From Betaproteobacteria bacterium (GTDB lineage: Bacteria > Pseudomonadota > Gammaproteobacteria > Burkholderiales > SG8-39), in assembly GCA_029883975.1 (NCBI GenBank), contig JAOUIL010000003.1:1-64000 (forward strand): 64,000 nt of DNA. Direction: 5' to 3'. Each line of letters opens with the position of its first letter. The first letter of the stretch is position 1. The notes beneath the pieces are model-generated. The model was not told the DNA's origin. It did no database searches and saw nothing but the letters and a program-made list of their open reading frames with translations. This document shows positions 13,370 to 21,605 of this stretch, one piece after another. Position numbers and translations under genes: made by a program.

Positions 13370-13852
13370 TTATCGAATGAGGTTCCCCGTCCGCACCACT
13401 GCCAGGCTATGCTCGTTCCGATCCCACCTCTGGTCCGCAATCGAGTTGTTCATTCGACCCAGAACTTCGGGATGCCGTCTTCCACCGTGAAACCAAAAAA
13501 GCATGGCGCTGTTCACGTCTGTCATCACGAGCTGGTTCGGGGTCATGCGATTGCGCTGTAACCGGACGCTGGTGGTACCCGTCTCTCGCGTGAAGCACAC
13601 TTGATCCTTGCCTTTGATTTCCCACATCCGCGGCTGAGGTTGTTTTCCCGGCTCGATGAAGATTCCTTTGCCATCGGCACGATAGTGCCCGACACGGCCG
13701 GCGCTGAATTTGAACGTCTTGTTGGAGAAAAGCTCGCGAAGTTCTTGCGGATTCCTGATGTCGATCCAGTCCTTTGGACTCTGCGCCACCGCGGGCGCAC
13801 ACAGCGCGCAAGTCAAAGCGGTTGCCAGATATGTGACGCGTCTCAATTTCAT
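13370..13852 (-). CDS. Secreted hypothetical cassette protein with probable 1-nt frameshift
   Basis: The open frame gives 160 residues with signal peptide MKLRRVTYLATALTCALCAPAVA, then DWIDIRNPQELRELFSNKTF and VGHYRADGKGIFIEPG. After NSAMLF the frame becomes WFHGGRRHPEVLGR, but removing one base from the A6 run at 13495-13500 gives GFTVEDGIPKFWVE and a stop at 13450. That is a far more protein-like ending, so the last about 40 residues are probably read in the wrong frame. The cause is either a homopolymer sequencing error or real decay. The function is unknown; it is likely periplasmic. It is the last recognisable cassette gene. Confidence 0.65.
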   Translation of the reverse strand: MKLRRVTYLATALTCALCAPAVAQSPKDWIDIRNPQELRELFSNKTFKFSAGRVGHYRADGKGIFIEPGKQPQPRMWEIKGKDQVCFTRETGTTSVRLQRNRMTPNQLVMTDVNSAMLFWFHGGRRHPEVLGRMNNSIADQRWDRNEHSLAVVRTGNLIR

Positions 13853-14057: not shown

Positions 14058-15467
14058 CTATTGCAGCCGCTGCAACTGCGGCGGTGTCCACTTGCCATTC
14101 AAGGCCTCCTCTTTGGGCCAGTAGAGGCGAATAACAGGCATAAACCAGCCCTTGGGCGCCGGCAACCAGTTGGACTCTTTATCCTTACCGGGGGATTCGT
14201 TCTGGAAATACAGCGTCAACCCACCATCGGCGTCGTATTTGAACTGATCCAGCATCGTCGAATTGAGGAGGTAGCGGTTGATCGAATTATCAACCAGCAG
14301 GATCTCCGGCATGCGATACATGGTTATCGACCAGAACGCGTTCACCGGCGGCAGTTGGCCCTTTGCAAAGTGCAGCGTGTAACGTTTGCTGCCATCCAGC
14401 TTTTGTCCTTCGTTATCGAGAACCAATAACGGATAGATCGCTTCGGCGGCCGAGTTGCCATAGATGCCATTGACGGCGCCTCCCATGCGATAGAGGTAGT
14501 TGTTCTTCAGGTACTCGCGCGTGCCGAACATCTGGCCGGAAGTCACTTGTTTCGCATCGATCCGTTTCTGCAGCTGAGCAAACTCGGCCAGGGCATCGGC
14601 CATGCCTTGCTCAATGGCTTTACGCATTTCAGGCGAGAGCTTGCTCGCGTCGAAGGTCTTGCCCGCGCCAACGCCGATCCTGGCAAAGCGTGCCATCAGT
14701 TGCTTTTCGGAAGGAACCGTCGGGCAGAACTCAAGAACGAAATCCAGAACACTGAAAAACTCAGGTGACGTTCTCTGTGTTTCTGGCGTGAGCGGCTTGA
14801 TGAAATCAATGGCTGGCGCCGCTATTGGAGCGGGCTGTCCCAGAAACGCGGACAGCGGTTGTGCCTTATAGCCGGCCTGTAATTTCTTTACGTTGTCGAG
14901 GTCGGCCGGATTGAAAAGCTGCGTGCGAAAAGCGCCAAAGACAAATTCGGTCTCCGACTGGATCACCTTCTTGATGCCTTTGGGTGCCTTGCCTTTCCAG
15001 TTTGGTCCGGCAATCAGGTAGCTGCCGCCGTCGTTGCCGGTGGTCCGGCTGCCGATATAGGCAAAATTATGGGTATAGGCATCGACGAGCTGGACGGAGA
15101 AATAGCGCTTCTTGTCTATCTTCGGCACGGTGAGCACAATGGGCTCGGCGCGCAAATCCATACCGATGAAAGAGTACGGTGTGTCCGAATTGGGTGTCTG
15201 GATGGCGGTGTCCTGCGGCGTGAAGACGCGAGGAACGTTGAGCAGTTGATTCCAGGGTGCTTTGTAATTGGGGTCTTTTTTCTCATGAAAGTAGGAGTAC
15301 TGGATGCGGTAGTGGTCCACCATCGGGAAACCGTAAATGTAGGCCTCCTTGGCGATGGCGCGGGCTTCCGCGGGGGTGACGGATTGTGCAGCGTGCGCCG
15401 CCGGGAACACCCACGTGGCAAGCAACGCCATTGTGAAGGCGATGGCTTTTGCGCTTTTGGTTTTCAT
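14058..15467 (-). CDS. DUF1254/DUF1214 secreted protein (cassette)
   Basis: About 469 residues with a signal peptide (MKTKSAKAIAFTMALLATWVFPAAHA). DUF1254 follows (AYIYGFPMVDHYR; NSDTPYSFIGMDLRAEPIVLTVP), then DUF1214 at the C-terminus (NAFWSITMYRM; FQNESPGKDKESNWLPAPKG). The family is widespread and secreted but has no established biochemical role. The ATG at 15467 is chosen because the signal peptide begins there; an ATG at 15488 is also in frame. It lies six bases after the upstream homologue's stop region, so both are co-transcribed in one cassette. The stop is 38 bases before attC 1. Confidence 0.85.
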   Translation of the reverse strand: MKTKSAKAIAFTMALLATWVFPAAHAAQSVTPAEARAIAKEAYIYGFPMVDHYRIQYSYFHEKKDPNYKAPWNQLLNVPRVFTPQDTAIQTPNSDTPYSFIGMDLRAEPIVLTVPKIDKKRYFSVQLVDAYTHNFAYIGSRTTGNDGGSYLIAGPNWKGKAPKGIKKVIQSETEFVFGAFRTQLFNPADLDNVKKLQAGYKAQPLSAFLGQPAPIAAPAIDFIKPLTPETQRTSPEFFSVLDFVLEFCPTVPSEKQLMARFARIGVGAGKTFDASKLSPEMRKAIEQGMADALAEFAQLQKRIDAKQVTSGQMFGTREYLKNNYLYRMGGAVNGIYGNSAAEAIYPLLVLDNEGQKLDGSKRYTLHFAKGQLPPVNAFWSITMYRMPEILLVDNSINRYLLNSTMLDQFKYDADGGLTLYFQNESPGKDKESNWLPAPKGWFMPVIRLYWPKEEALNGKWTPPQLQRLQ

Positions 15468-15493
15468 GTCTTCTGTTTCCAATTGCATTTCGA

Positions 15494-17014
15494 TTATTTG
15501 ACCAGCTCAAAATCACCGGGCTTCCAGGTCTTGTCGAACCAGGGCTGGAGCGGGCCGTACAGACGCAATAGCACGTTCCAGCCCTTGCCGGGCACAGTCT
15601 GCACCCAGTTGGACTCGTGACCCTTCGGTGCGGTCGGGCCGAACCAGACGTCCACCGAGGAGTCGGCATTGATGACGACACCTTTTCTCTGGCTGCTGAT
15701 GCTCGGGAACTGATGGTCGGTCTGCAGCATCGAACGCGTCTGGTTGTCATAGACCACGATTGACCAGAAGTTCTTGGCCGGGATGTTGGGTGGCAGGTGA
15801 ATCTTGTAGGTCTTGCTGCCATCCAGCGGCTTGCCCTCGGAATCGGTGGTCGCCGCGGCGTACTGAGAACCGACGCCGACGATCTTCATCGCCATGGCGG
15901 GGGTGATGCCGGTGGCGTAGTAGTGGAACAGGACGCGTCCATCGAGGTTGCGAACGCCGGGTTGCTTCAGGAACTCGTAGCTGCCGCCGGCGAAACTGGT
16001 GAACCACTTCCGATCTGGGTAGTAGTAGACGCCGTCGATGCGGGGACGAAACGTAAGGGCGCGCGAAGTCGCACTGGCCACTGCCGCCGCCTCGGTGAGG
16101 ATCTTTTTCATGCGGGCATCGGGCGCGAAATTCTTGTCCTTCTCGATGCCGATGGCGGCGAGCAGGCCGAGCGTTTCCGGATTCAGCGCTTCGTTCGGTT
16201 CATACTGAACAATCGCGTTCACTTCCTCGTAGAAGTGGAAGTCGTTGGCATGAATCGTGTTGAATTCCTTGCCCGATACATTGATGAACTTCATCGGCGG
16301 CGGGTTCTTCGCATCGGAGAGCGAATAGACCTTGAAGAAGTTCTTGGTGTTGTCGAGGGACGTTTTCGTGCTGCCGTTGTCCAGGAAGCCACGATAGAAC
16401 ATCAGGTTGCCATAGGTTGGTGAGCGCATCACGACATAACCTTTCGGCACCTCACCCTTGTACCCCGGGGGCAGGAGCAGAAACTTGCCACCCTTGCCCT
16501 TATCCGGGCCAGCGTTTCCAAAGTCGCCCACATACTTGAACCAGTGGTCATCAACGATGCCGAGGACGTTCGGTGGCGTTTCGAGGACTAGCGGTCCCTT
16601 GCTGGTGTCCAGCCACGCCATGTGGTAGACGCTCTCGGTATTGGGTGTCAAGAAGAGCGACTTCGAGTCCATCAGGCGTTCCATGATGAGCAGGGTCTGG
16701 TTGTTCACCGCCCCCTGGCTGGCCCACCCAACACGGATAGCTTCAGCCGACGCACCCGGCATCGCGTTGAGAAAGGCCTCTACGCCGCGCATGAAGTCGA
16801 GGTTGTCATAGACCTTCTGCGTGGTGGCATCGTCAGGAAAACCATCGAAGAATTTCAACGTGCCGATGCGTGTCTCGACGCTGTCCGGCGTGGTGATGGC
16901 CTTGGGAATGTCCGTCGTCATCTTCATCTGCGGGGGCGCCGCCGCGAACGTGGCTGTTGCCAAGAAGAGCAGCGCGCCAAGAGTGCCGCTTACTTGGGCT
17001 GGAGTAATTTTCAT
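15494..17014 (-). CDS. DUF1254/DUF1214 secreted protein (cassette)
   Basis: 506 residues with signal peptide MKITPAQVSGTLGALLFLATATFAAA. The N-terminal DUF1254 region includes MRGVEAFLNAMPGASAEAIRVGW and FLTPNTESVYHMAWLDTSKGPLVLE, and the C-terminal DUF1214 region includes NFWSIVVYDNQTRSMLQTDHQFPS and PKGHESNWVQTVPGKGW. It is a divergent paralogue of the next gene. The start has AGAGGAAG just upstream and lies 58 bases after the cassette recombination point. The two genes make this cassette about 3.1 kb, large for an integron cassette. Base composition is clearly lower in GC than the host genes. Confidence 0.86.
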   Translation of the reverse strand: MKITPAQVSGTLGALLFLATATFAAAPPQMKMTTDIPKAITTPDSVETRIGTLKFFDGFPDDATTQKVYDNLDFMRGVEAFLNAMPGASAEAIRVGWASQGAVNNQTLLIMERLMDSKSLFLTPNTESVYHMAWLDTSKGPLVLETPPNVLGIVDDHWFKYVGDFGNAGPDKGKGGKFLLLPPGYKGEVPKGYVVMRSPTYGNLMFYRGFLDNGSTKTSLDNTKNFFKVYSLSDAKNPPPMKFINVSGKEFNTIHANDFHFYEEVNAIVQYEPNEALNPETLGLLAAIGIEKDKNFAPDARMKKILTEAAAVASATSRALTFRPRIDGVYYYPDRKWFTSFAGGSYEFLKQPGVRNLDGRVLFHYYATGITPAMAMKIVGVGSQYAAATTDSEGKPLDGSKTYKIHLPPNIPAKNFWSIVVYDNQTRSMLQTDHQFPSISSQRKGVVINADSSVDVWFGPTAPKGHESNWVQTVPGKGWNVLLRLYGPLQPWFDKTWKPGDFELVK

Positions 17015-17177: not shown

Positions 17178-17561
17178 CTATGGCATGTCCAGCCAATAGC
17201 AGAATCCAAGAAGGTACAGCAGCAAGTGAATAGCGAGAGCCGAGGCTAGAGCTACAGGCAGCAAGGCAGCAACGGCAATTCCGACGTTGTATCTTCTCGT
17301 TACCCATGTCGTGGCGCCCGCTTCTCCGAGGACGAACGCGGCAGACCAGATGCGGCAGTTATCGTGAAATGGAGTCGGAGCGCCATGGACTCCGATAGAA
17401 CTGCACGAGAACTCGTAGGCGCAAAAGGGCAAGAAGAGGGGGTTAACGACATAGATCAGAGGCCAGGCGAGCACGAGCACCGCCACAGTGAGAATAGGCG
17501 GGATTGCTGCGATGCCAATCAGCCGCAGCGCTAATTGCGCCGTGTTGATTGCCTGTGCCAT
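17178..17561 (-). CDS. Small multi-pass membrane protein (cassette)
   Basis: 127 residues with about three or four hydrophobic helices (IGIAAIPPILTVAVLVLAWPLIYVV; VGIAVAALLPVALASALAIHLLLYLL). No family is recognised. The ATG lies inside the attC core (GTTAGATGGC), a common placement for integron cassette genes, so translation depends on the upstream context or Pc transcript. There is no Shine-Dalgarno. Confidence 0.65.
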   Translation of the reverse strand: MAQAINTAQLALRLIGIAAIPPILTVAVLVLAWPLIYVVNPLFLPFCAYEFSCSSIGVHGAPTPFHDNCRIWSAAFVLGEAGATTWVTRRYNVGIAVAALLPVALASALAIHLLLYLLGFCYWLDMP

Positions 17562-17649
17562 CTAACGTGCCCGGTAACCGGTGCGTGCCCGGTAGCCTAG
17601 GCGCATGGCGGCGCGTCCGCACGCGTCCGCGTTGACCGGGGGGTTAGGT
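17560..17649 (-). other. attC recombination site 3
   Basis: A 90-bp site from ACCTAAC to GTTAGAT on the minus strand. CCCCCCGGTCAACGCGGACGCG and the GC-rich complementary half form an extended imperfect hairpin. The 5' core supplies the TAA stop of the GNAT gene. CTGCTACCTAAC mirrors GTTAGGTAGCAG at the cassette start (18078-18089). Confidence 0.85.
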
Positions 17650-18075
17650 AGCAGCCTTGTCATCGGGTATGAGTCGCTTTCCCAGGCTGACCGTTTGATC
17701 TTGTACATATCCCAGGCGCTCGTAGAACGCTAAGACGGCAGCATTCGTGGAGCGAATTTGCATGTTCAGCTTCGGACAGCCGATGGCTCTCAACATCTCT
17801 TCGACCCGGACCATAAGCGCCCGCCCTAGCCCGCGGCGCCTATACCGCTCTGCGACCGCTAGATAGTTGACCCAACCACGGTGGCCGTCGAACCCGGCCA
17901 TTACCGACGCTATCACGCCGCCATCCAGCAGACCCACCAAGAACAGCTCGGGCTGGACGGTGAGCTTTCTTTGGATGTCCTTGCGAGGATCGTTCCAGGG
18001 CCTGACTAAGTCACATTCGTTCCACAGACGAACGACCGCCGCTTCATCGGCGTCCTGGTATCTCCGGATATCCAC
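17644..18075 (-). CDS. GNAT family N-acetyltransferase (cassette)
   Basis: 143 residues. The acetyl-CoA loop is YRRRGLGRALMVRVEEML, preceded by WVNYLAVAERY and followed by LNMQIRSTNAAVLAFYERLGY, the standard GNAT motifs A and B. The short RimI-like size suggests a small-molecule or protein N-terminal acetyltransferase. Acetyltransferases are frequent integron cargo, some giving drug resistance, but nothing here indicates that substrate. The start is GTG, with the TAA stop inside attC 3. Confidence 0.85.
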   Translation of the reverse strand: MDIRRYQDADEAAVVRLWNECDLVRPWNDPRKDIQRKLTVQPELFLVGLLDGGVIASVMAGFDGHRGWVNYLAVAERYRRRGLGRALMVRVEEMLRAIGCPKLNMQIRSTNAAVLAFYERLGYVQDQTVSLGKRLIPDDKAAT

Positions 18076-18082
18076 TGCTGCT

Positions 18083-18163
18083 ACCTAACGTTCGCGTTTT
18101 GCCGCGCCGCACGGAGTGCGTAGCGCGGAGTAGTAGGCGTCGGTCAACAACGCGGTGTTAGGC
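18083..18163 (-). other. attC recombination site 4
   Basis: An 81-bp site from GCCTAAC to GTTAGGT. It shares GTTGTTGACCGACGC and GCGGCAAA with attC 2. It supplies the TAA stop of the 18158-18544 gene. CATGCGGCCTAAC matches GTTAGGCCGCATG at the start of its own cassette (18542-18554). Confidence 0.87.
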
Positions 18164-18544
18164 CGCATGTTTGGCCTGACGGAAGAGAACCCACGCAGCA
18201 ACCAATATCACCCACCCGATCAGAAAGACCGGTATGCCTATGCTCGATGTAAGCAAGACGGCGGTCAGAGAACCGCCGACGCAGATGCCACCGCCAATTG
18301 CGGATAACACATAGCTCTTGCGTAGGCGCGCGTTGCTATCGCTCGCGCGCTGTTCGCGGCGAGCTACGCTGCCGAATAGGGGCGCGATCAAGAGCGCCGC
18401 GACACCAATAGCCGCTCCTATCGCAGTAGGCACCCAAGGTGCGATCGTTTCTGAGCCTGGAAATCGAGACAGCGCGTACCCGAGCAAAGCACAGACCGCC
18501 ACTACGCTGATCATCTGTAAGACATTGGCAGTTGCGCGATTCAT
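18158..18544 (-). CDS. Small membrane protein (cassette)
   Basis: 128 residues with four hydrophobic helices (VLQMISVVAVCALLGYAL; WVPTAIGAAIGVAALLIAPLFG; SYVLSAIGGGICVGGSLTAVLL; IPVFLIGWVILVAAWVLF). No family is recognised. The start is the ATG in GTTAGGCCGCATGAATCG, ten bases after the recombination point. The upstream part of the ORF-track entry runs through attC 5 and is not coding. Confidence 0.65.
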   Translation of the reverse strand: MNRATANVLQMISVVAVCALLGYALSRFPGSETIAPWVPTAIGAAIGVAALLIAPLFGSVARREQRASDSNARLRKSYVLSAIGGGICVGGSLTAVLLTSSIGIPVFLIGWVILVAAWVLFRQAKHAA

Positions 18545-18547
18545 GCG

Positions 18548-18634
18548 GCCTAACGTCTTGGTGTGCCGCGGGCCAGTGCGAGGCCTTGATACCGCGGTGC
18601 GCTGGCGGCCCGTCGGCACCACCTAAAGTTAGCG
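18548..18634 (-). other. attC recombination site 5
   Basis: An 87-bp site from CGCTAAC to GTTAGGC on the minus strand with the expected complementary arms (GTGGTGCCGACGGGCC against GGCCCGCGGCACACC). It supplies the TAA stop of the toxin gene. Its 5' core GTGCTCGCTAAC matches GTTAGCGTGCAC at the attI-like junction with one mismatch. Confidence 0.85.
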
Positions 18635-18931
18635 AGCACGGGTACGAGGGCGCCAGTAGAAGGGGCGTCGGGAATGATGCGCGATGGCGAATATGACGAT
18701 GCCATCGGGCTCCGGGCGGTAGACCAGGGAGAATCGGAACCCCTTGACGATGACCCGGCGTGTATTGGCACGGGAAGGGGAGCCAGACTGAGGAAACGCA
18801 AGAGCGCGGGCTGCGGCCTCTTCCACAGCCGCGGTGAAGCGCTCGCCCAAGCCGGGTTGCGCTTCATTGTGATAGATGACTTCGGCGAGGAACTCTAGGC
18901 GCGCCGCGGCTATGAACCGCGCGCGCTTCAC
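18629..18931 (-). CDS. parE: RelE/ParE-family toxin (cassette)
   Basis: 100 residues. EFLAEVIYHNEAQPGLGERFTAAVEEAAARAL and the C-terminal VIVKGFRFSLVYRPEPDGIVIFAIAHHSRRPFYWRPR are typical of the ParE/RelE fold. The GTG start overlaps the antitoxin stop by four bases (GTGA), the usual antitoxin-first arrangement. The target (gyrase or mRNA) cannot be told from the sequence. Type II modules are well known as stabilisers of cassette arrays. Confidence 0.88.
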   Translation of the reverse strand: MKRARFIAAARLEFLAEVIYHNEAQPGLGERFTAAVEEAAARALAFPQSGSPSRANTRRVIVKGFRFSLVYRPEPDGIVIFAIAHHSRRPFYWRPRTRAR

Positions 18932-19158
18932 CGAGCGAGGCGTCTTGCCTCGGCAAATACGTCTTCGGCCGAGATCGTTGGCAGTTCACCGCGATCGTAT
19001 GCGGCCGCGCGCTCTTCAATCTCGCGGTCCCATGCCGCTTCGATCTCCGCAAGCGGTGGATCCTGGATGGACTCCAACAGGAGCTCCGCCAGCTGCGCAC
19101 GCTCGTCGGCCGTAAGAGATTTGGCCTGCTTTTCCAGTTCCTTAAGCGCGTTCGACAT
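18928..19158 (-). CDS. Addiction-module antitoxin (Unstab_antitox family)
   Basis: 76 residues, starting MSNALKELEKQAKSLTADERAQLAELLLESI and ending in AWDREIEERAAAYDRGELPTISAEDVFAEAR. This is the short antitoxin family paired with ParE/RelE-like toxins. A GGAGG six to eight bases before the ATG fixes the start. It is the first gene of the first cassette, closest to the attI-like site and candidate Pc promoter. Confidence 0.88.
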   Translation of the reverse strand: MSNALKELEKQAKSLTADERAQLAELLLESIQDPPLAEIEAAWDREIEERAAAYDRGELPTISAEDVFAEARRLAR

Positions 19159-19213
19159 ATCTAGGCCTCCGCGGGTCACGGTGATTCTACGCCTCCCTAC
19201 GCCTGCCCTTATC

Positions 19214-19256
19214 GTGCACGCTAACTAGTGATTAGGCGACGACCCGCCGCCCAGGA
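19214..19256 (-). other. attI-like site at proximal end of array
   Basis: On the minus strand GGGTCGTCGCCTAATCACTA is followed by GTTAGCG. This resembles the class 1 attI1 end GGGCAGTCGCCCTAAAACAAAGTTAG, recalled from memory. The following GTTAGCGTGCAC matches the 5' core of attC 5, so this is the junction where the first cassette inserted. No intI gene lies in the remaining 180 bases before the next host gene. Confidence 0.55.
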
Positions 19257-19257
19257 A

Positions 19258-19286
19258 AGTATCCATTGGTTGAAGCATGCTCCCAA
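19258..19286 (-). promoter_or_regulatory. Candidate cassette promoter Pc
   Basis: Minus strand TTGGGA, a 17-base spacer and GATACT (four of six matches to each consensus hexamer), placed just upstream of the attI-like site and directed into the cassettes. This is where Pc sits in integrons. The surrounding 19260-19400 is AT-richer than the host genes and holds no gene. Confidence 0.45.
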
Positions 19287-19408
19287 TACTAGAAGCTTGT
19301 TAATGCCGATAGGTACCCAGATCTAGGATCACAAATCTAGATACGTCGAGAAACGGCCGAGCCCGAAAGCAACCGCCACACAGCACACCCCAGCGGGGCG
19401 CCAAGCGG

Positions 19409-19621
19409 CTATTCGTCCTGCTTCGCCTTCCCGCCGCCGGCCAGGTTGCCGATGAAGTAGCGCGTCAGCGCCACCCAGAACTCCTGCCCCGAATGCCTGG
19501 CCGAGAGGGCGGAGATGTCGCCGTAGCCCTTGTGCGCGATGGTCGACAACATGAGCACGAGGACAACGACGGCGGCCTTCTGCAGTAGCCCCGGCCAGAA
19601 GCCGTCCAGAGCCGCCCTCAT
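19409..19621 (-). CDS. Small single-pass membrane protein at end of Ehr operon
   Basis: 70 residues with one hydrophobic helix (LLQKAAVVVLVLMLSTIAH) and a charged C-terminal tail. The ATG overlaps the stop of the small-subunit gene (ATGA). No homologue is recognised. Its position suggests an accessory or assembly subunit of the hydrogenase-like complex. It is the last gene before the cassette array. Confidence 0.65.
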   Translation of the reverse strand: MRAALDGFWPGLLQKAAVVVLVLMLSTIAHKGYGDISALSARHSGQEFWVALTRYFIGNLAGGGKAKQDE

Positions 19622-20124
19622 TTCATCCGCCGCGCGAGCCCCAGCACGCCGCGCAGGATGTCGATCGGCGGCGGCGGACAGCCGGGCACCGCGAAGTCCA
19701 CGGGAATGACGTTCGCTACCCGCCCGCAGCTCGCGTAGCTCTCGCCGAAGATGCCGCCGTCGCAGCCGCAATCGCCCACCGCCAGCACCAGCTTCGGATC
19801 GGGCGTCGCCTCGTAGGTGCGCTTCAGCGCCACTTCCATGTTGTGCGACACCGGGCCGGTCACCATCAGCAGGTCCGCATGGCGCGGGCTCGCGACGAAC
19901 TTGATGCCGTAGCCCTCGAGGTTGTAGTAGGGATTGTTCAGCGCGTGGATCTCGAGCTCGCAGCCGTTGCACGAGCCCGCGTCCACCTGGCGGATGCACA
20001 GCGCGCGCCCGAGGATGTGCAGGATCTCGTGGTGGATGCGCGCCACCTCGGGCAGCTTGTCGAGGTTGTAGACCGGCTCGGTGAGGATGCCGGTGCGCAG
20101 GATCTTCCAGACGATGCGCTGCAT
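19618..20124 (-). CDS. Ehr/hydrogenase-4-like small subunit (NuoB/HyfI family)
   Basis: 168 residues. SCNGCELEI (Cys52, Cys55), GDCGC (Cys119) and PGCPPPP (Cys149) keep the ligands of the proximal [4Fe-4S] cluster (N2 in complex I). It forms the peripheral arm with the large subunit and passes electrons. Because the partner lacks Ni-Fe ligands, the physiological electron donor is unknown. It overlaps the large-subunit stop as TGATG. Confidence 0.88.
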   Translation of the reverse strand: MQRIVWKILRTGILTEPVYNLDKLPEVARIHHEILHILGRALCIRQVDAGSCNGCELEIHALNNPYYNLEGYGIKFVASPRHADLLMVTGPVSHNMEVALKRTYEATPDPKLVLAVGDCGCDGGIFGESYASCGRVANVIPVDFAVPGCPPPPIDILRGVLGLARRMK

Positions 20125-21605
20125 CAGAGGTCGTGCCCGGAATAGGACAGGTTGAACGACTTGTTGATCAGCGGGAAGTCCGGGACGATGTTGTCCATCA
20201 CCGCGTGCTCGAGCGCCGGCCAGTTCTGCCAGGAGGGGTCGTGCGCGTGGCAGCGGCGGATCGCGCCGCCCTCCAGCTCCAGCGCGCAGAACACTTCGCC
20301 GCGCCAGCCTTCCACCCAGCCGGCGCCATAGGCCTCGCCCGCGGGCACCTGCAGCTCGACGCGATGCTCGCCGCGCGGCGGCTTGTCGCAGATCTCGCCG
20401 ATCAGGCGCAGCGACTCGAGCGTTTCGTCGAAGCGCACGCTGACGCGCGCGGCGACGTCGCCGTTGCGCTGCGTGGCCATGCGCACCTCGAGCGACTCGT
20501 AGGGCGCCCAGGCCTGGTCGCAGCGCAGGTCGATGGCGTGGCCGCTCGCGCGCGCGGCGAGCCCGGTGACGCCGAGGCGCGCCGCGAGCTCGGGACGCAG
20601 GCGGCCGGCACTTAGGAAGCGGTCCTGCAGGCCCGCGTGGCCGTCGAGGATGGCGCGCAGCGACTTCACTTCCTTCGCCAGGCGCTCGCCGTCCGCGCGC
20701 ATGCGCTCGAGCATCGGTGGCGCAACGTCGGCCGCCGCGCCGCCCGGCACGACGCCGTCCATCATGAAGCGGTGGCCGAAGATCTCGCGCGAAGCGCGCT
20801 GCCAATCCTCGCGCAGGCGCGAGAACTGGGTGAGGCCGAAGGCGAGGCCGGCGTCGTTGGCGAGCGCGCCGAGGTCGCCGAGGTGGTTGGCGACGCGCTC
20901 GCGCTCCAGCATGAGGCCGCGCAGCCACGCGGCGCGCGGCGGCAGCTCGACGCCGGCGGCGTCCTCCAGCGCCATGCAGTACGCCCAGGCGTGCGCCACG
21001 GTCGAGTCGCCCGAAATGCGCCCGGCGAGGCGGTGCGCCTCCAGCGGCGCGAGCTGCGTGAAGCGCTTCTCGATGCCCTTGTGCACGTAGCCCAGGCGCG
21101 CTTCGAGCCGCAGCACCTTCTCGCCGACGATGGAGAAGCGGAAGTGCCCCGGCTCGATGATGCCGGCATGCACCGGGCCTACCGGGATCTCGTGCACGCC
21201 GTCGCCCTCGACGCGCACGAACGGGTAGTCGATCACCCCGCAGTCGGCGAAAGCCTCGCGGCCACTCGCCGCGCGCGCGAGCGGCTGGTAGGCGGCCGGC
21301 CAGGCGCCGTGGTTGAGCCACGGCCTGCGGTCGGCGGCATTCTCCACCGTCAGGCCGAGGAGGTCGCCGAGCGCGCGCTGCATGCGCCCCGCGAAGTGGA
21401 AGACCGGCGCCAGGTCGGGAAACGTCGCCTCGCCCGCGAGCGGCAGTTCGGCCCACTGCAGTCCTTCGGGCGTCGCGTAGGCGGCGCACAGCACGCGCCC
21501 TTCCGCGCGCTCGGTGCCCCACAGCGCGACCAGGCGGCCGCCGCGCGCGGCGAGCGCGCGCGCGTGCGTCACCCAGGCTTCGCGGCGCAGGCGCTCGCGC
21601 TTCAT
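20124..21605 (-). CDS. Ehr-type large subunit lacking Ni-Fe cysteines (NuoCD/HyfG family)
   Basis: 493 residues: an N-terminal NuoC-like part, then a NuoD/HyfG-like part. In true [NiFe] hydrogenases the L1 motif is RxCGxC and L2 is DPCxxC. Here L1 is RISGDS (residues 196-201) and L2 is DPSWQN (456-461), so all four metal-binding cysteines are replaced. This defines the energy-converting-hydrogenase-related (Ehr) group, not a hydrogenase. The reaction is unknown; quinone or another redox cofactor may bind at the vacated site. The start overlaps the previous stop (ATGA). Confidence 0.87.
   Translation of the reverse strand: MKRERLRREAWVTHARALAARGGRLVALWGTERAEGRVLCAAYATPEGLQWAELPLAGEATFPDLAPVFHFAGRMQRALGDLLGLTVENAADRRPWLNHGAWPAAYQPLARAASGREAFADCGVIDYPFVRVEGDGVHEIPVGPVHAGIIEPGHFRFSIVGEKVLRLEARLGYVHKGIEKRFTQLAPLEAHRLAGRISGDSTVAHAWAYCMALEDAAGVELPPRAAWLRGLMLERERVANHLGDLGALANDAGLAFGLTQFSRLREDWQRASREIFGHRFMMDGVVPGGAAADVAPPMLERMRADGERLAKEVKSLRAILDGHAGLQDRFLSAGRLRPELAARLGVTGLAARASGHAIDLRCDQAWAPYESLEVRMATQRNGDVAARVSVRFDETLESLRLIGEICDKPPRGEHRVELQVPAGEAYGAGWVEGWRGEVFCALELEGGAIRRCHAHDPSWQNWPALEHAVMDNIVPDFPLINKSFNLSYSGHDL

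Follow-up and report, generated by a model that had tools for sequence, protein, structure and literature searches.

The window analysed here, that is, the whole stretch of 64,000 nucleotides, carries an attI-like element followed by an array of gene cassettes, with the end of an Ehr/NuoB-type operon lying upstream of the element (Table 1). The core of the element ends in GTTAGCG at 19,225-19,219 of the minus strand, and the cassette array begins directly after it on the same strand. An earlier sequence-only reading had placed an attI-like site at the head of the array, which holds true, since the core is present and is followed by cassettes and attC sites; the site does lie in the interval assigned to it (19,214-19,286), but the conserved unit is longer and extends over 19,219-19,344.

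Table 1. Features of the attI-like element and of the cassette array, in window positions.
Feature	Position	Strand	Basis
Ehr/NuoB-type operon end, upstream of the element	19,618-20,130	minus, same strand as element	
attI-like element (repeat-rich leader plus core), copy of a dispersed family	19,219-19,344	minus	profile and model searches
Short hairpin directly ahead of the core, GGGCGGCGGGTCGTCGCC	19,234-19,254	minus	comparison of close copies
Core with inverted boxes, GTCGCCTAATCACTAGTTAGCG	19,240-19,219	minus	sequence reading, attI matrix
Presumed crossover in GTT	19,225-19,223	minus	paralogous and orthologous copies
Cassette 1, addiction-module antitoxin (Unstab_antitox) and ParE-type toxin	18,554-19,224	minus	
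Antitoxin ORF, PF09720 / TIGR02574	18,928-19,179	minus	
ParE_toxin ORF, PF05016	18,629-18,928	minus	
attC 1, R'' off consensus	18,634-18,548	minus	by eye
Cassette 2 ORF, no confident family	18,158-18,550	minus	
attC 2, score 34.3	18,163-18,083	minus	
Cassette 3 ORF, GNAT acetyltransferase (NF002959)	17,644-18,075	minus	
attC 3, score 29.4	17,649-17,560	minus	
Cassette 4 ORF, no family	17,178-17,561	minus	
attC 4, score 28.6	17,147-17,067	minus	
Cassette 5, two DUF1254/DUF1214 proteins (15,494-17,014 and 14,058-15,488)	14,058-17,014	minus	
attC 5, score 31.3	14,019-13,960	minus	
ORF beyond the last recognised attC	13,373-13,852	minus	

Five cassettes bounded by attC sites follow the core; four of these sites were scored and the fifth was read by eye. 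The score is a home-made one, calculated from the boxes and arms, and the four scored sites of the window reach 28-34, as compared with a control maximum of 20.8 in 257 kb. Across the array, the G+C content falls from about 0.70 to 0.55-0.61. At about 3 kb, cassette 5 is unusually long; two distinct DUF1254/DUF1214 proteins are encoded between attC 4 and attC 5. Containing at least two attC sites and no adjacent integrase, the array belongs to the CALINs; of the components of a complete integron, an attI-type site is represented by the core at the sequence level only, and an intI gene adjacent to it is missing from the window. The claim that no integrase gene accompanies the site was borne out, as the translated search for intI remnants proposed in the same reading returned no fragment in 19,200-19,700, where the best tblastn match has an E-value of 5.7.

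An intact IntI is encoded elsewhere in the same genome (contig C153, 19,833-20,777; TIGR02249, 490 bits, full length). The genome has thus not lost its integrase, and the window array may be served by this enzyme in trans. A LexA-like palindrome (ACTGTATATCTATACAGT) is located upstream of the C153 intI gene. Because the contig (G000:C153, L003) ends 190 bases from the intI start, the attI site and array belonging to this gene are unassembled; the DNA upstream of it does not convincingly resemble the window element.

Judged on its own sequence, the window site is only mildly unusual: a matrix built from 21 intI-linked attI cores of the same family ranks its core above 96.6% of background GTTR sites, a value at which the resemblance of a single sequence would not have sufficed. 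As indicated by the comparison with other copies, it is conservation, and not the core sequence itself, which lifts the site above chance. A profile whose training set left out every copy from the genus of the window, in order to exclude circularity, recovered the window element as the sole match in the 64 kb (E = 4.8e-8) and yielded no match in the reversed window. The comparison with intI-linked attI sites of relatives, which the earlier reading had suggested, gave a divided answer: the core does resemble the 21 family cores, but the leader preceding it is absent from every intI-linked attI examined in the family. The short hairpin at 19,234-19,254 varies with compensation among the three closest copies. 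A single conserved RNA fold for the entire element family was considered and rejected, because convincing hairpins are seen in the three closest copies and are not kept across 17 copies, and no family-wide fold is claimed; searching Rfam with the array and with the G040 copy gave no genuine match.

The element is about 125 bp in length and consists of a leader of about 105 nt, composed of palindromic repeats, which usually ends in an attI-type core; the core consensus among the copies is [C]TAATCAT..GTTRGRC. The first matches to the window site came from congeners and lay at other loci, namely after ribE in G040 (79% identity) and in G041:C348 (72%), and the same element is also found after ribE in G041. 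A sequence model based on three copies detected the element in 15 of 98 family genomes, and a model based on 17 copies in 28 of the 98, which cover 10 of 26 genera and contain about 55 copies, with a maximum of five in one genome. It is almost absent from some 390 other genomes of the order, G226 being the only clear case, with three loci, and an exact pattern run against 85,462 species genomes matched solely contigs of this group, all of them from metagenome-assembled Betaproteobacteria. Nearly all element-bearing genomes are draft metagenome assemblies. The copies occupy unrelated chromosomal loci, often just past the stop codon of a host gene; some are truncated, and a clean core is wanting in others (GGATAG in G041:C324, AGTCA in G023:C61, AGTCGG in G060). 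No IntI was found in the examined element flanks, the one exception being a distantly related XerC-like recombinase (33% identity) encoded downstream of G066:C131. Two copies from different genera, L140 (G066:C131) and L211 (G073:C56), are followed directly after GTT by near-identical DNA beginning with GTTGAACTAAACCGCTTCGCGGTGG..., which in G066 runs into a tyrosine recombinase gene; this shared DNA looks like one mobile element targeting the core. The ribE-linked copy in G040 (C50; L067:4919-5812) is followed by a single cassette encoding a 297-aa protein, SIR2-like by eye, and a degenerate attC-like end is seen after this cassette.

A Pc-like promoter pointing into the array, TTGGGA-17-GATACT, had also been postulated. 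It exists as written but shares 8 of its 12 positions with the consensus, a chance level: shuffled versions of the element reach 7.65 of 12 on average. A stricter promoter scan of the window element found none, and neither the TTGGGA nor the GATACT hexamer is conserved in other copies. A Pc promoter reading into the cassettes is thus not apparent in the window, which leaves room for promoters of other types. The motif TTGCWT-17-TASSAT occurs in about half of 42 copies tested, as compared with 3 matches in a 224-kb set that itself includes some element copies; it may represent a promoter or merely reflect the conserved repeats of the leader.

Several features point to insertion of cassettes at the GTT of the core. 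Related copies align up to the core and lose identity exactly at GTT in the pairs G226:C10/C38, G226:C10/C35, G058:C17/G070:C85, and G050:C3/C64, while the pair G023:C75/C61 diverges at GT; the pairs compared are copies within one genome or orthologous loci in two genomes. An attC site with a score of at least 24.5 is present within 1.6 kb downstream of 17 of 46 copies, but in only 6 of 274 control blocks (p = 1.4e-11). Under the same test, 11 of 15 intI-linked arrays score positive, so that sites without a recognisable attC in 1.6 kb amount to 29 of 46 copies versus 4 of 15 intI-linked arrays; the proportion with attC is thus lower than in intact integrons, and many of the copies may have decayed or may hold other DNA. 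The G+C content is lower downstream than upstream in nearly all copies (0.50-0.65 versus 0.60-0.70), and the contig ends no more than 2 kb past the core in 12 of 23 cases, as compared with 1 of 23 on the upstream side, a breakage also seen in intI contigs. The element cores are separated from background GTTR sites by their likeness to intI-linked attI sites of the family with an AUC of 0.95, a value owed partly to the shared GTTRRRY box. Finally, IntI is encoded in 21 of 28 genomes with the element and in 33 of 70 without it (p = 0.014), a co-occurrence that fits service in trans; the fairly complete genomes G041, G065, and G031 contain elements and gave no IntI match.

Many elements are preceded at a distance of 5-35 bp by a gene for a 115-aa protein, designated Y (METRxTLRPGQxGTRKLVxRYGERLVCVRYLYD...LGAVWRPxQKLWE...RVV). 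At 14 of 17 Y loci of the family this gene directly precedes an element, as judged for 12 loci by the model (element within 90 bp) and for G046:C54 and G070:C116 by sequence reading; the contig of the latter breaks inside the element. Some solo copies still have a stump of Y upstream (G226:C38, G039:C1, G051:C33), with G039 belonging to the genus of the window. In the pairs G226:C10/C38 and G050:C3/C64 the similarity takes in the 3' end of Y, suggesting joint copying of Y and the element in at least some cases. A profile search across the class, covering 369 genomes, identified Y in 9 of them. In five of these, distant genomes that include AT-rich ones in which the leader can no longer be aligned, a GTT core lies 104-120 nt past the Y stop codon (e.g., GTCTAATACACTGTTAGGC in G526); an attC site is found further on in three of the five (G555, G526, G815). 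The order Y, leader, GTT core, cassette, and attC thus recurs in other families of the class, and no IntI was found in the examined flanks of Y units. In the complete genome G607 (L258), a gene resembling ISL3-type transposases by eye lies downstream of Y, near the expected core.

Searches with Y recovered no family in Pfam, NCBIfam, or PHROG, plasmids, phages, and viral contigs were likewise without a match, and no solved relative was found for the whole protein, including its well-predicted N-terminal half. The predicted structure has good local confidence (pLDDT 89) and a pTM of 0.44. Its C-terminal half shows a weak sequence likeness to DUF5710 (PF18974), seen in 6 of 16 members with a best E-value of 0.013, below the Pfam cut-off, and a likeness of the predicted fold to the same domain (Foldseek probability up to 0.99, E = 0.097). 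One match to Arm-DNA-bind_5 (E = 0.057) is regarded as a lead only. The window copy has a leader and core homologous to those of the Y-linked units and is also recovered by a profile derived from Y-adjacent copies only (E = 2.6e-4). No Y gene lies directly upstream of it or elsewhere in its genome (G000), and no Y remnant was found at 19,200-19,700; the window copy is a solo element without Y. When the Ehr locus was compared in relatives in search of an empty site, Ehr was not flanked there by the neighbours that the window has on the array side.

Taken together, these comparisons make it probable that the unit at the head of the window array is a copy of a dispersed orphan attI-like acceptor, which would receive its cassettes from an IntI acting in trans, possibly assisted by Y. 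An integrase expressed from another locus of the genome (in the present case on contig C153) would insert circular cassettes at GTT; the repeats of the leader would be putative protein-binding sites, perhaps for Y, and Y itself a putative accessory or specificity factor, with the window representing a solo copy that lacks it. A more far-reaching proposal, which we put forward tentatively and with somewhat less than even confidence, is that Y, leader, and core form a distinct cassette-capture platform, an integron-like 'satellite' with a dedicated non-integrase protein. Y might then mark or activate the site for an IntI from elsewhere, while solo copies might spread acceptor sites and seed CALINs.

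The sequence-only reading had favoured an ordinary CALIN, a complete integron whose integrase was deleted and whose attI, promoter, and cassettes stayed behind. The array is indeed headed by an attI-type core without intI, and CALINs are held to be degraded integrons in published opinion (PMC9024848). Nevertheless, such a deletion appears very unlikely, because the same unit of about 125 bp occurs at dozens of unrelated loci, none of them beside intI or a fragment of it, because its leader is missing from the intI-linked attI sites of the family, because no piece of intI is left at the locus, and because the usual upstream partner is Y rather than intI. Of the two options left by the statement that intI 'has been lost or never was here', the second fits the data, while the first is at odds with the recurrence of the element at these intI-less loci.

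The array might also have arisen by IntI acting in trans on a secondary chromosomal site of the attG type, the leader being merely a repeat of the host in which a GTT is present by chance. Insertion at attG is established according to the account of Loot et al. (2024) cited in PMC12444791, IntI is encoded in the genome, and repeats of this kind are often located past stop codons, as is the case in the window. We regard this origin as unlikely, since the target is one element conserved over its entire length and with an attI-like core, and not a loose, scattered consensus or a degenerate site diverging from attI and attC; moreover, it is repeatedly occupied and linked to Y in several families. 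The discrete, dispersed palindromic repeats, with several copies per genome in solo and Y-linked form, would equally suit the end of a MITE- or REP-like mobile element whose cargo resembles cassettes by chance and whose GTT core is incidental. Taken as the full explanation this is quite unlikely, given that attC sites occur at cassette distance downstream far above the control, that the DNA from GTT onward differs between copies, and that Y1 transposases do not track the element. A Y1/REP transposase, present in 62 of 98 genomes with a distribution that does not follow the element, was accordingly dropped as a candidate for its dispersal. Dispersal and acceptor function are compatible, however, and the mobile-element reading may be correct in part.

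Earlier work has described CALINs (arrays without an integrase), cassette insertion at attG, and displaced attI fragments (PMC9024848, PMC12444791, PMC12901181); the open-access literature searched contained neither a dispersed intI-less attI-like element nor a Y-like protein beside one. The orphan acceptor proposed here shares the inverted L and R boxes, the GTTRRRY core, and the position at the head of an array with attI1 and the intI-linked attI sites of the family, but differs from them in lying away from intI, in its long conserved repeat leader, and in its several copies per genome. The attI sequences known as delta-attI are also found away from intI, yet they are attI fragments at the 3' ends of cassettes within integrons of classes 1 and 2, unlike the element (PMC12901181). 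IntegronFinder no longer searches for attI by default, as such sites are poorly described outside class 1 (PMC9024848), which would explain why elements of this type have gone unnoticed. Accessory proteins for attI x attC insertion have been proposed for IntIA of Vibrio cholerae (PMC8946536), and Y would be a concrete candidate for such a role with integron integrases. In the available account of attG (Loot et al., 2024), cassettes are likewise inserted into the chromosome away from the integron platform, but the sites described there are far removed in sequence from classical att sites and occur widely as single sites, whereas the element constitutes one homologous family with an attI-type core. 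As in other CALINs, the window contains an attC array without an adjacent integrase, on which an IntI from elsewhere may act in trans (PMC12444791). However, CALINs are defined by attC alone, whereas the array of the window is headed by a conserved, dispersed attI-like element which in the family is often accompanied by Y. CALINs are usually viewed as degraded integrons or as random insertions; if the present reading is correct, a dispersed attI-like acceptor would add a third, testable origin, and one integrase could serve several cassette-loading sites per genome.
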